Of a stretch of DNA of 31,308 nucleotides, positions 2,684-19,306 are shown piece by piece. How positions within the stretch are numbered: position 1 is the first letter of the stretch; every line of letters begins with the position of its first letter. Origin of the DNA: a virus. Made by a program: the position numbers and the translations under genes. A model generated the notes under the pieces. The model saw nothing but the letters and a program-made list of their open reading frames with translations. It ran no database searches and was not told the origin of the DNA. The stretch lies in IMG/VR virus record IMGVR_UViG_3300001750_000003, positions 1 to 31,308 of that record. One strand, 5' to 3'.

Positions 2684-3288
2684 TACGCCACCTGTACTTG
2701 AGGCAATACATATCGACCACCTTGTGCCGATTTGTTTGCCTGTTTTATTTGTGAATTGTAAACATCAGCCCACTTGGTCATCTCTTCGTCATCTTGAAGA
2801 AACAGATTGACCTGCAACATCATCGCGCTGAGATAAATCATAGGGAATTTAGTCAGGATATCGTTAGTTGCTGTGCCTGTTAAGGTTGGAACACGTGCAT
2901 AGTAGCTAATCTCACCATCTACGGTCGCTGTAACGCTCGGAGCCGGTCTTAATTCGATTTGTCCGCCATGTATCGCATAGCCTGCCGCCGTGCCTTGTGC
3001 GCGACTGTAGATAGCGTCCAACTGCTGAGGTGAGTATGCCTTTATCGGCACTCTCGCACCATCATCTTCAATCTGTATCGCTCTCATTTCCATATAATCG
3101 GCTGGAATGTCATAAAAAGCATCGTCAAACGTGACCGCAAGCCTTTTTTCCATATCAAGCGTTCTTAAATCCTTGTTAATAACGGATTCTGCCAAAATAC
3201 AGAACGTATCCATCTTGGCTGTCAGGTTAGAACGATGCGACCACTCAGCAACCTCGGTTTTAAGCTCGGTATAAGTGCTTATTGCCAT
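2683..3288 (-). CDS. Head-tail adaptor protein (SU10-type)
   Basis: A 201-residue protein resembling the adaptor that attaches below the portal ring in SU10-like podoviruses. Helical N-terminus (YTELKTEVAEWSHRSNLTAK, then FCILAESVINKDLRTLDME), a central beta part (YDIPADYMEMRAIQI, HGGQIELRPAP, EISYYARVPTL) and a helical C-terminus (FPMIYLSAMMLQVNLFLQDD, then WADVYNSQI) give the order seen in that family. Its place, downstream of capsid and upstream of nozzle, agrees. Start and stop overlap the neighbours by one base. Confidence 0.8.
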   Translation of the reverse strand: MAISTYTELKTEVAEWSHRSNLTAKMDTFCILAESVINKDLRTLDMEKRLAVTFDDAFYDIPADYMEMRAIQIEDDGARVPIKAYSPQQLDAIYSRAQGTAAGYAIHGGQIELRPAPSVTATVDGEISYYARVPTLTGTATNDILTKFPMIYLSAMMLQVNLFLQDDEEMTKWADVYNSQIKQANKSAQGGRYVLPQVQVA

Positions 3289-3557
3289 TAGACATCAGTT
3301 ACTACGTTAGTCGGCACAGCTACGCAAGGCGCGTCCGTCTGAGCTATCGTGCCAGCCGGTGCGACATCATCTGCCACTGTCCAGCCGTCTATCCACGCCA
3401 CGCCAGCATCACTGGTTGCTACATGGGGGTTGTCGGTAACAGGTCGGCCTAACAAAGTACCGCTTGCTCTGTAATAAACGCCTTCTGAAAAGGCTTTGGT
3501 TTCTTTCAGGTTGTAACTATTATTAGTCGCTGCACCTGTACACATTTTTCCTGCCAT
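3288..3557 (-). CDS. Small head-module protein with an Rmf-like sequence pattern
   Basis: An 89-residue protein between the 98-residue head gene and the adaptor. Residues about 22-63 read AFSEGVYYRASG, NPHVATSD, then AWIDGW. That spacing of Gly, Asn-Pro and AWxxGW recalls ribosome-modulation-factor-like phage proteins and the 55-residue protein at 15608-15775. The resemblance is by eye and short. By position it may instead be a small head-completion or decoration protein. It overlaps both neighbours by one base, so it is expressed with the structural genes. Confidence 0.65.
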   Translation of the reverse strand: MAGKMCTGAATNNSYNLKETKAFSEGVYYRASGTLLGRPVTDNPHVATSDAGVAWIDGWTVADDVAPAGTIAQTDAPCVAVPTNVVTDV

Positions 3558-3853
3558 TACATTGTCCTCTGTAATTTATTGGGTTTATAAGGGAGGGATT
3601 CATCGGTCATACAAAATGCTTGCCATGCTTTCTTTTTAATCTCAGCATCGGGGCATTGTAAATCAGGATAAATCATGGTTAACACTTCATAATGATCGGT
3701 TGGGATATCAAGCGCCAACCTGCCGAAAGACAGGTCTTTAAGATTCACATCTTTGGCGCAATCCATCCGCGCTTTGAGAGACGGATAGTCTCGCTCTTGC
3801 ATGAGCTTCAATACCGCCCTTGCTTGTAGAGTAAAACTACCCGCCCCGTACAT
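3557..3853 (-). CDS. Small head-module protein of unknown function
   Basis: A 98-residue, largely helical protein directly after the capsid gene, coupled by one-base overlaps on both sides. It has four Cys residues in no zinc-binding spacing (MDCAKD, LQCPD, FCMTD) and a basic C-terminus (KPNKLQRTM). Position suggests a head-completion protein; the sequence itself shows no known family. Confidence 0.7.
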   Translation of the reverse strand: MYGAGSFTLQARAVLKLMQERDYPSLKARMDCAKDVNLKDLSFGRLALDIPTDHYEVLTMIYPDLQCPDAEIKKKAWQAFCMTDESLPYKPNKLQRTM

Positions 3854-4887
3854 TACGCCGTTACCGCTGCTGTGTTGTCGATATCACCGATAAGACCGTG
3901 AGCCTTTTCAGTAGTACAAACCAGCGTCCAATCTGCAGACATCAAGCGTTTCTCACTTAAGCCAACCTTAGCCAGTGGCTCGGTGCGGAAAGAGTGTAAG
4001 AAAGACTGACGAAGGTGCATAGGGTCAAGCATAAACGCGCTTGACTCATCCGTACCCGTATTCTGCTGTAGGCGGTTAGGAATCAAATCCAGTGTTACAC
4101 CAAAATCAGTAACAAACACGTTAACCGAGCCTTTAGCCGTTGCACCACTCTCAGATTGTCCTGTTTCACTAGTCAGAGTCGCGATACGCGCACTTGAGCT
4201 AAATAGGTACTCAGAGAATTTACGGCATACAGATGGAACCATCATTAATACTGTTGGATTGCCGCCTTCTGTATAGATATCTTCTGCAACATCACGTACT
4301 TTAGCCTCTGTCAGTGCTTCGGCCGTGCCTAGAGTCGCCGCATCAACGATACCCGTACCTGTGTTGTAACCACCAGCCGATCCACCAGTACCAAACGATA
4401 CGTTAGTCTCTAGCCAAGCATTTAAGCCACCTGATTGGCCTGCTACTGCATCGGTACCTGCAATCGATGGGTTGTTAGAAAGCATTGCCGCTTCACAATC
4501 TCGACGTAGCTCTTGCTGGCGCATCATAACCTGGTAGCTCAGCTCATTAGCACGACCAATCGTATCAGACTCAATCGCACGGGTAGACACGCGAACATTC
4601 TTAACAGAAGTCTGCGAGTGATTACCTACACGGGAGCCTGTGCTAGTGTCATTGGTCGCTGCGTCTTGATCGGAACCATCAATGGTCTTGTTAGTGGTAA
4701 CTGGCGCTGCTAGTTCGTCTTGCGTCCACTCGTAATATTCGTTGGAATGTGAATCTGTCCCAATCATATCCGTCAGTGGTAGTGGGATTTTTGAGATGTC
4801 CCAAATCTTGTTCATTACATCTTCATTAATTAAACCGTTTACAGCAACCTGTTTGAGATTATAGCTGTCTAAATTACTTGTACTCAT
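3853..4887 (-). CDS. Major capsid protein (SU10 / DUF5309 type)
   Basis: A 344-residue protein matching the SU10-type capsid family (formerly DUF5309). Recognisable pieces are the N-terminal 'NEYYEWTQDELAAP' segment (about 48-61), 'VGNHSQTSVKNVRVS' (about 87-101), the helix YQVMMRQQELRRDCEAAMLS (about 118-137) and the C-terminal 'DPMHLRQSFL', 'EPLAKVGLSEK' stretch. Length is typical. It follows the scaffold gene with about 33 bases between and precedes small head genes, the usual order in this group. It forms the icosahedral shell. Confidence 0.88.
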   Translation of the reverse strand: MSTSNLDSYNLKQVAVNGLINEDVMNKIWDISKIPLPLTDMIGTDSHSNEYYEWTQDELAAPVTTNKTIDGSDQDAATNDTSTGSRVGNHSQTSVKNVRVSTRAIESDTIGRANELSYQVMMRQQELRRDCEAAMLSNNPSIAGTDAVAGQSGGLNAWLETNVSFGTGGSAGGYNTGTGIVDAATLGTAEALTEAKVRDVAEDIYTEGGNPTVLMMVPSVCRKFSEYLFSSSARIATLTSETGQSESGATAKGSVNVFVTDFGVTLDLIPNRLQQNTGTDESSAFMLDPMHLRQSFLHSFRTEPLAKVGLSEKRLMSADWTLVCTTEKAHGLIGDIDNTAAVTA

Positions 4888-17053: not shown

Positions 17054-17099
17054 AACCACCCCCTAACTTCCCTGTTTTGCTGTCCTCTTTGTTGTTCAT

Positions 17100-17662: not shown

Positions 17663-17793
17663 TATTTAACCGCCTTTTTAATTGCCTGTCTTATATAAAA
17701 TGACATAGACATGCCTTCTTTTTTCGCTTTTGATTCAGTTTTCTTTTTCAAAGCTTTCGGAATCTGTATTGTTATTGTTGTATTTTCAACCAT
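17662..17793 (-). CDS. Ribbon-helix-helix DNA-binding regulator
   Basis: A 43-residue Arc/CopG-type protein: a short N-terminal strand (TTITIQIP), then helix A (KALKKKTESKAKKEG), a turn and helix B (MSFYIRQAIKKAV). This is the minimal RHH fold, which binds DNA as a dimer of strands in the major groove. AGGTGA precedes the ATG. It is the first gene of the leftward early operon, directly beside the divergent promoters, where an autoregulator would act. It could serve as the genome's early switch. Confidence 0.75.
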   Translation of the reverse strand: MVENTTITIQIPKALKKKTESKAKKEGMSMSFYIRQAIKKAVK

Positions 17794-17884
17794 TTCTCAC
17801 CTGTATCGTTAACGTGTAAAGTTATTATGCGCCTATTTAATAATTAAAGCAAATATATTTAAAAACACTTGCATTATGATTTTA
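17794..17884. promoter_or_regulatory. Divergent early promoter region
   Basis: Leftward: TTGCTT (complement of 17847-17852), 17-base spacer, CATAAT (complement of 17824-17829), followed by the RHH gene. Rightward: TTGCAT at 17869-17874, 17 bases, CATACT at 17892-17897; or a -10 TATGAT at 17875-17880, which would start transcripts near 17886, at the first arm of the leader RNA helix. The AT-rich bases between are likely operator targets for the RHH protein. The assignment is by consensus matching only. Confidence 0.6.
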
Positions 17885-18251
17885 CTTAGTCCATACTAGA
17901 TTCAACAGTTCAGAAACGTGCCATTATAAACACAACCAAGAGGACAGGGCCATGTGAATTAAGTCGTTAGAAGCGATCAAACCGGACTAAGAGAATATTT
18001 ATATAAGTAATGAGAAATAAAGAAGTAGAAGTAAAGGAGGGTTCGGATTTACCAGTGTTGAAGCATAGCCTCCTGTGGAGCTGGTAAGTTGTGTTAGAGA
18101 TGCAGCGGTGTGGAGAGGCATGAAAAAGACGAAGCGAGTAGCCAGTCTAATAGGCCAACGGAGACACACAGCGACTGGGAAGACTCCCCTTTATGCGTAC
18201 CGGCTAGGTCAACCGGATAACCAGACTAGCGACTGGTCTGCATCTCTAACA
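17885..18251 (+). ncRNA. Structured non-coding leader RNA, previously unrecognised by me
   Basis: About 370 bases without a convincing gene, with three self-complementary modules. (1) CTTAGTCC (17885-17892) pairs with GGACTAAG (17984-17991). (2) AGGAGG (18035-18040) with CCTCCT (18069-18074) interleaved with TTACCAG (18049-18055) and CTGGTAA (18081-18087). (3) A perfect 14-base helix, 18092-18105 with 18238-18251, closes a multibranch domain containing GTGTG/CACAC (18108-18112/18165-18169), GGGA/TCCC (18177-18180/18185-18188), CCGG/CCGG (18200-18203/18213-18216) and ACCAG/CTGGT (18220-18224/18233-18237). It lies between the rightward promoter and the first gene, so it is transcribed with the early operon or released from it. 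Cis antitermination, a riboregulator or a trans-acting small RNA are all possible. No known RNA family was recognised. Confidence 0.7.
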
Positions 18252-18284
18252 GTTACAAACCACCAACCAATAGGGGAAGAAATT

Positions 18285-18701
18285 ATGAGTGATCTAACAA
18301 TGAATTTACCGACAGAAATAGTTGAGCGAGCAGTAAGAGATAAAATAAACGCAGCTATAGCAGAGCAACTTGGTGATCCAGAGGAAATGATTAAGAAATT
18401 AGTCGGCGCTGCTCTATCGCAAAAAGTATCAAGTAATGGAGCAGTTGGTCGGTCTGATTACGATAACAAATTTGAGTTTCTTGACCTGCTGGCTGGAAAC
18501 TTTATGCGGGACGCAGCAAAAGAAGCATTGACAGAATTTTTTGAAGAAAACAGAAAAGCTATTAAAGATGCGGTAAAAAAAGAAGTGGCACGAAGCCCAT
18601 CAAAAATGGCAAAGATATTTATGGATGGGATAACTAAAAGCATGACGAGCGTTTATACGCCAAAGGTTGATATTGTATTCAAGACAGAAAGCGATTATTA
18701 A
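18285..18701 (+). CDS. First rightward early gene, unknown function
   Basis: A 138-residue helical protein (MSDLTMNLPTEIVERAVRDK, 'LLAGNFMRDAAKEALTEFFE', 'IKDAVKKEVARSP'). The frame is open upstream to 18075, but that part encodes the leader RNA helix, and the ATG at 18285 has AGGGGAAG seven or so bases before it, so I start there. Ends in a beta-like 'PKVDIVFKTESDY'. No family recognised; its place right after the structured RNA makes it a candidate partner or target of it. Confidence 0.75.
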   Translation: MSDLTMNLPTEIVERAVRDKINAAIAEQLGDPEEMIKKLVGAALSQKVSSNGAVGRSDYDNKFEFLDLLAGNFMRDAAKEALTEFFEENRKAIKDAVKKEVARSPSKMAKIFMDGITKSMTSVYTPKVDIVFKTESDY

Positions 18702-18922: not shown

Positions 18923-19057
18923 GGAGAGGTGGCGGAATTGGTAGACGCAAAGTGTTGTTACATTAGTGAAGCGGTGAATCACCCTACAAGGCTAGCTACT
19001 TGAATGCTAGTCGCCAGACACAGGCTAGTGAAGGTTCGAATCCTTCCCTCTCCACCA
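18923..19057 (+). tRNA. Oversized tRNA-Leu-like gene, anticodon not assignable
   Basis: Both ends are canonical: acceptor GGAGAGG (18923-18929) with CCTCTCC (19047-19053), discriminator A and encoded CCA (19055-19057); T stem GAAGG/CCTTC (19030-19034/19042-19046) with loop TTCGAAT; D arm GCG/CGC (18932-18934/18946-18948) like E. coli tRNA-Leu; and a variable arm GCC-7-GGC (19013-19025). The gene is 135 nt rather than about 87. The best anticodon stem, CTAGC/GCTAG (18992-18996/19006-19010), has a 9-base loop TACTTGAAT, and about 43 extra bases, with two small hairpins (18951-18964, 18973-18983), separate it from the D arm. It may be an intron-like insertion, a tRNA mimic or a decayed tRNA. Confidence 0.75.
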
Positions 19058-19078: not shown

Positions 19079-19306
19079 ATGAAAGTAATAGTGAATGAAA
19101 AAACAGATAGACGTGATGATGTTAAATATCCTTGCTTAATGATTAACCAAGACACGCAAGCGGTAGCGTTATTTACTAAGAAAAACACAGGTGTAATGTT
19201 GAAATGCTCAGTCAGCTCCTTAAACACAGTTGGTGAATACTCGACAACTTGGGCGGACTGCTTTACACCGTTTCACGGAGATATTACCTTGGATAATGAC
19301 CAATGA
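19079..19306 (+). CDS. Hypothetical protein, 75 residues
   Basis: MKVIVNEKTDRRDDVKYPCL, 'MINQDTQAVALFTKKNTGVM', then a Trp-containing end. The open frame reaches back into the tRNA-like gene, so I start at the ATG with AGAGGA upstream. Beta-rich and compact; the 'YPCLM....A.VLFT....G..L' style occurs in small phage proteins. Coupled by ATGA to the next gene. Confidence 0.7.
   Translation: MKVIVNEKTDRRDDVKYPCLMINQDTQAVALFTKKNTGVMLKCSVSSLNTVGEYSTTWADCFTPFHGDITLDNDQ

Follow-up and report, generated by a model that had tools for sequence, protein, structure and literature searches.

The window, by which we mean the whole stretch of DNA that was analysed (31,308 bases, an IMG/VR virus record), encodes phage-like terminase, portal, capsid and ejection proteins, and its nearest annotated terminase records are those of the APSE phages (45-46% identity). 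The leftward genes encode replication-initiation-like, NinB-like, RusA-like and YbcO-like proteins and are followed by the head genes; an Erf recombinase is among the products of the rightward genes. Based on this layout, we infer a phage of the P22/APSE type, in which the rightward operon would correspond to the PL operon.

The first leftward and the first rightward gene start ~490 bases apart (17793 and 18285), and the gap between them (17794-18284) makes up 1.6% of the window. An earlier note, made from the sequence alone, had drawn attention to this long gap ahead of the first rightward gene, and the gap is real: it is bounded by a ribbon-helix-helix (RHH) gene on the minus strand and a 138-codon gene on the plus strand and, except for an in-frame upstream extension of the 138-codon gene, it holds no open reading frame of 60 codons. 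From ~17900 on, the strand composition becomes that typical of the rightward direction (G>C, A>T). The product of the RHH gene matches RHH_1 in Pfam (E 1.7e-5) and the Arc-like repressor in PHROG (E 8e-7). The features of the gap and its borders are presented in Table 1.

Table 1. Features of the gap between the divergent genes and of its borders (window positions)
Feature	Position	Strand	Remarks
43-aa ribbon-helix-helix (Arc-like) gene	17667..17793, end approximate	-	First leftward gene; borders the gap on the left
Weak candidate rightward promoters	17858..17897	+	Weight-matrix ranks 88-141
Leftward sigma70-like promoter TTGAAT-15-TAAAAT	~17884-17905, start about 17872	-	Weight matrix
8-bp helix CTTAGTCC / GGACTAAG	17885-17892 with 17984-17991	+	Closes segment 17885..17991
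Small open frame, 25 codons, MRNKEVEVKEGSDLPVLKHSLLWSW	18010..18087	+	Putative; without a good ribosome site
6-bp helix AGGAGG / CCTCCT	18035-18040 with 18069-18074	+	
7-bp helix TTACCAG / CTGGTAA	18049-18055 with 18081-18087	+	Interleaved with the AGGAGG/CCTCCT helix
Perfect 14-bp helix TGTTAGAGATGCAG (5' arm) / CTGCATCTCTAACA (3' arm)	18092-18105 with 18238-18251	+	
Interior of the 14-bp helix	18106..18237	+	132 nt
Possible N-terminal extension of the 138-codon gene	18120..18284	+	55 codons, in frame; GGAGAGG ahead of ATG 18120
138-codon gene	18285..18701	+	Own ribosome site AGGGGA 18272-18277

Concerning the promoters, the leftward site ranks about 23 among all weight-matrix sites of the window, with a spacer of 15. 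Since its transcript would start at about 17872, this transcript would exclude the structure at 17885-18251. No strong rightward promoter is found in the gap: the strict consensus gives none, and the weight matrix gives weak sites only, which include TTTAAA-17-TTTACT (start about 17893) and TTGCAT-17-CATACT (start about 17904). No terminator is found within the leader. A ribosome-site-like stretch, AAGAGGACAGGGCC, followed by an ATG TGA start-stop pair, is located at 17933-17957 on the plus strand; a stretch in this region resembles the ribosome site of the gene that starts at 17059 on the minus strand.

All the helices named in the earlier note (the 8-bp helix, the interleaved 6- and 7-bp helices and the 14-bp helix) are found in the sequence, but only the last of them goes beyond chance. 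Of the perfect inverted repeats in the window with arms at most 400 bases apart, the 14-bp one is the longest. Among 20,000 dinucleotide shuffles of the gap (17794-18284), 0.045% contain a repeat of at least 14 bp; for the whole window the share is 3.7% (600 shuffles), and one of 3000 leader shuffles reaches the 14-bp helix. These statistics are good evidence, though short of overwhelming. Shuffled leaders contain an 8-bp helix within 110 nt in 26% of cases and interleaved 6- and 7-bp helices in 9%, so these helices of the leader carry no weight as evidence. The segment closed by the 8-bp helix has a fold z of -1.55, and a hairpin at 18046-18088 is possible in the region of the interleaved pair (18035..18087). 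Within the interior of the 14-bp helix, AGCGACTGG occurs twice in direct orientation (18170-18178 and 18228-18236); a CCAGTC there could pair with either copy. The GC content of 18092-18251 is 52.5%, compared with 42.3% for the window, which places it in the top 1.6% of 160-nt windows.

The folding energies do not bear out the ornate fold of ~370 nt that had been described for the plus strand: neither the whole stretch (17885-18251, 367 nt; z = -0.02) nor its first 206 nt (17885-18090; z = +0.63) folds more stably than its shuffles. The 160 nt from 18092 to 18251 have z = -2.77 and an MFE of -51.7 kcal/mol. Because their interior (18106-18237) has z = +0.99, the energy signal of this domain is that of its closing helix; of the proposed multibranch domain with four smaller helices, only the closing 14-bp helix is supported. 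On the minus strand, the same 160 nt fold better (z = -4.10, MFE -58.8 kcal/mol), and the interior has z = -0.89 with an MFE equal to its centroid. Based on the values of both strands, the energy neither backs a large plus-strand structure nor decides the strand.

The 138-aa protein has no confident Pfam or PHROG family. Its relatives are 68% identical in IMGVR_UViG_3300023223_000123 (G001, locus L002) and 26% identical in MT835524; no phage other than G001 was found to have a close homologue. A role of the leader in regulating the 138-codon gene, which had been among the suggestions of the earlier note, could act through occlusion of the ribosome site. A TCCCCT at 18185-18190 is complementary to this site, and the ensemble favours the pairing too little to stand out. 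With 400 nt of leader the unpaired probability of the site is 0.53, rank 21 among 32 starts counted from the most occluded. The site is thus about as open as those of other genes of the phage, and its occlusion is not supported.

As in the earlier note, no known family is recognised: the Rfam 15 scan (including GOLLD, ROOL, group I/II introns and tmRNA) gives no match in 17885-18284 at the gathering score or up to E 10. With BLASTN the leader has no match in phages, plasmids or E. coli either, and pattern searches of IMG/VR and GTDB, both exact and gapped, give nothing or else repeats and chance matches, mostly in coding sequence. A single-sequence covariance model of 18092-18251, run against 92 loci and 32 whole phage records, finds itself and low-scoring coding repeats only. 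No relative of the leader is present in 49 phage records with related terminases, and the 369 genomes of the class reached via a Polynucleobacter genome give two marginal matches, which were taken as chance. The back-translated open frame, used for a sensitive DNA search of IMG/VR and GTDB, finds no relative. The collections searched may omit records very near the window, and close relatives of the leader may exist.

The putL and putR RNAs of HK022 are cis-acting RNAs in the early-operon leaders of lambdoid phages, and the window leader would likewise be an early-operon leader. The put RNAs have a conserved sequence and bring about factor-independent antitermination through the beta' zinc-binding domain. 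Their similarity to each other served to locate the two in HK022, and a joint model (R1) was built. This model finds putL and putR again, with 90 and 86 bits; its best matches in the window have 7.5 and 6.3 bits and lie outside the leader, so that the proposal of a put-like RNA finds no counterpart there. The HK022 RNAs are ~70 nt long with two stem-loops, and putR lies about 270 nt from its promoter (PMC9378689). GOLLD and ROOL are large structured phage RNAs which are often found near tRNAs (PMC12286853). The operon of the window leader also contains a tRNA-like element (18923-19054); however, the leader is far shorter, its fold is ordinary save for one helix, and it has no Rfam match. A search for ROOL by name gave no match, with no positive control responding. 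The Pseudomonadales-1 RNA (RF03046) is ~160 nt long, as is the window domain, and lies beside a tRNA in a phage with a related terminase (G023). It sits there between the nin-type genes and the terminase, with the tRNA directly after it (L251 14685-14921), whereas the window leader heads the early operon. Up to E 10, the window contains nothing that matches RF03046, while the same search scores G023 at 103 bits. A GAGTAGC in the window that resembles the Pseudomonadales-1 RNA was judged to be chance. In lambda, the N-leader is a long leader before the first gene of the PL operon and contains nutL and an RNase III hairpin. The window leader resembles it in being long and in having a hairpin ahead of the first gene in an operon of the PL type, and differs from it in that no N-like protein is recognised in the window and the ribosome site stays open in the fold.

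In G001, the 138-aa gene is the fourth of its operon, and three genes separate it from a structured stretch at the operon head (2809-4007, ~1.2 kb). This stretch is without convincing genes and contains perfect repeats of 14, 13, 12, 10, 10 and 10 bp. Its fold has z = -7.16 on the plus strand and -5.49 on the minus strand, and all of its five helical sub-domains but one have z of -4.5 or lower on the plus strand. Positions 2966-2993 resemble a promoter, and 3938-3963 a terminator stem; a faint tRNA-like element, below the Rfam cut-off, lies at 2873-2950, and the stretch itself has no Rfam match. The G001 stretch illustrates how a real ornate leader RNA would look by these tests, and the window stretch falls short of that. 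The two have no sequence in common, and the parallel between them is positional because G001 and the window have only the 138-aa gene in common. A by-product of the analysis is an unmatched candidate for an undescribed ornate phage RNA (non-coding, ~1 kb), which makes a much stronger case than the window leader. That the two stretches are a large and a reduced form of one undescribed class of phage early-leader RNA is very improbable; this idea is based on the presence of the 138-aa gene in both operons and of a tRNA-like element nearby in each record. Near the end of the G001 stretch, 90 nt (3796-3886) are 75% identical to Vibrio breoganii phages; these conserved 90 nt are also found at L232 6001-6090. 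They may form the end of a small gene (QL..K.I.GAG.FK...D..L*) or represent an att site.

The reading that we prefer, although it falls somewhat short of an even chance, is that the window stretch is the non-coding leader of the rightward early operon, with one real long-range RNA helix, a ~160-nt domain and a use in cis. The operon it would head comprises the 138-codon gene, small genes and the Erf recombinase gene, and appears to share its layout with the PL operon of P22/APSE-type phages. The 14-bp helix would close the domain just upstream of the first gene and, if the leader is transcribed rightward, may fold it off as a unit in the cell; the most likely use of such a domain would be to control, in cis, the passage of RNA polymerase or the processing or stability of the early transcript. 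The excess of the 14-bp helix, the energy of the 160-nt domain, its raised GC, the composition switch and the long non-coding operon head in G001 speak for this reading. Against it speak the ordinary fold apart from the arms, the better minus strand, the weakness of the rightward promoters, the lack of a terminator inside and, for the G001 parallel, its merely positional nature and the three genes that separate the G001 stretch from the 138-aa gene. What the stretch contains is one real helix in a plausible non-coding leader, and a large RNA is unproven. If real, the leader would add to the RNA-based control elements of phage early leaders, among which, to our knowledge, understanding is limited to put, nut and a few immunity RNAs.

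An ordinary spacer or remnant, whose repeat would be the single long match that 31 kb happen to yield, would also fit the whole-window shuffles, some of which reach 14 bp. The absence of a homologue from the searches and the remaining helices, all within chance, point the same way, but the repeat sits in the one 490-base gap and adjoins a raised-GC block, and we regard this explanation as unlikely. Perfect arms around an unstructured interior are also what a DNA element would give, be it an invertible segment, a pair of binding sites for a protein or a small inserted element of 160 bp whose ends the arms would form. The ends are TG...CA and the flanks nearly match (GTTG/GTTA); however, there is no exact target duplication, no second copy in the window or IMG/VR and no recombinase among the proteins scanned, and GTDB gave only four unrelated chance matches, those examined being largely in open frames. 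A DNA element is quite unlikely; neither the further copies nor the exact target duplication of a small inverted-repeat (MITE-like) element are seen.

A start at ATG 18120 would make the region at least partly coding and would lengthen the 138-aa protein to 193 aa through a basic N-terminal extension (MKKTKRVASLIGQRRH...). The 55 codons are open and in frame with the 138-codon gene, a ribosome-like site lies ahead, and the codon score (0.035) is 1.8 sd above off-frame sequence, yet 2 sd below genes. Against this, the G001 homologue uses the conserved internal start, which there has a site of its own and stops upstream, the extension is without any protein relative, and the 14-bp repeat is left unexplained; we consider the extension possible, do not favour it and rate it as improbable. 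A functional RNA on the minus strand, either antisense or a leftward leader RNA over 18251-18092, would agree with the better and well-defined fold of that strand, including the interior. That strand is nevertheless pyrimidine-rich, its interior is close to shuffled sequence by z, and it has no good minus promoter in 18250-18600, the best leftward one being left of the domain; such an RNA is improbable.

Some further structured elements were observed in the window and in other phage records. The tRNA-like element of the window (plus strand, same operon as the leader, Rfam tRNA 40.8 bits) contains an acceptor stem, D-arm, T-arm and CCA. It is ~132 nt long with an oversized anticodon/variable region, and is not called by ARAGORN. 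The ORF listed from 19004 probably has its true start near 19079. G041 contains a 1.6-kb gap at the ORF cut-off used (L253 9995-11562); its first 700 nt have z = -3.9, with no Rfam match. In G017, a tRNA-like element of 43.7 bits is found on the minus strand (L243 8931-9024). Its anticodon loop seems to hold an extra hairpin, and it sits in a structured non-coding gap of 874 nt with z = -4.1.
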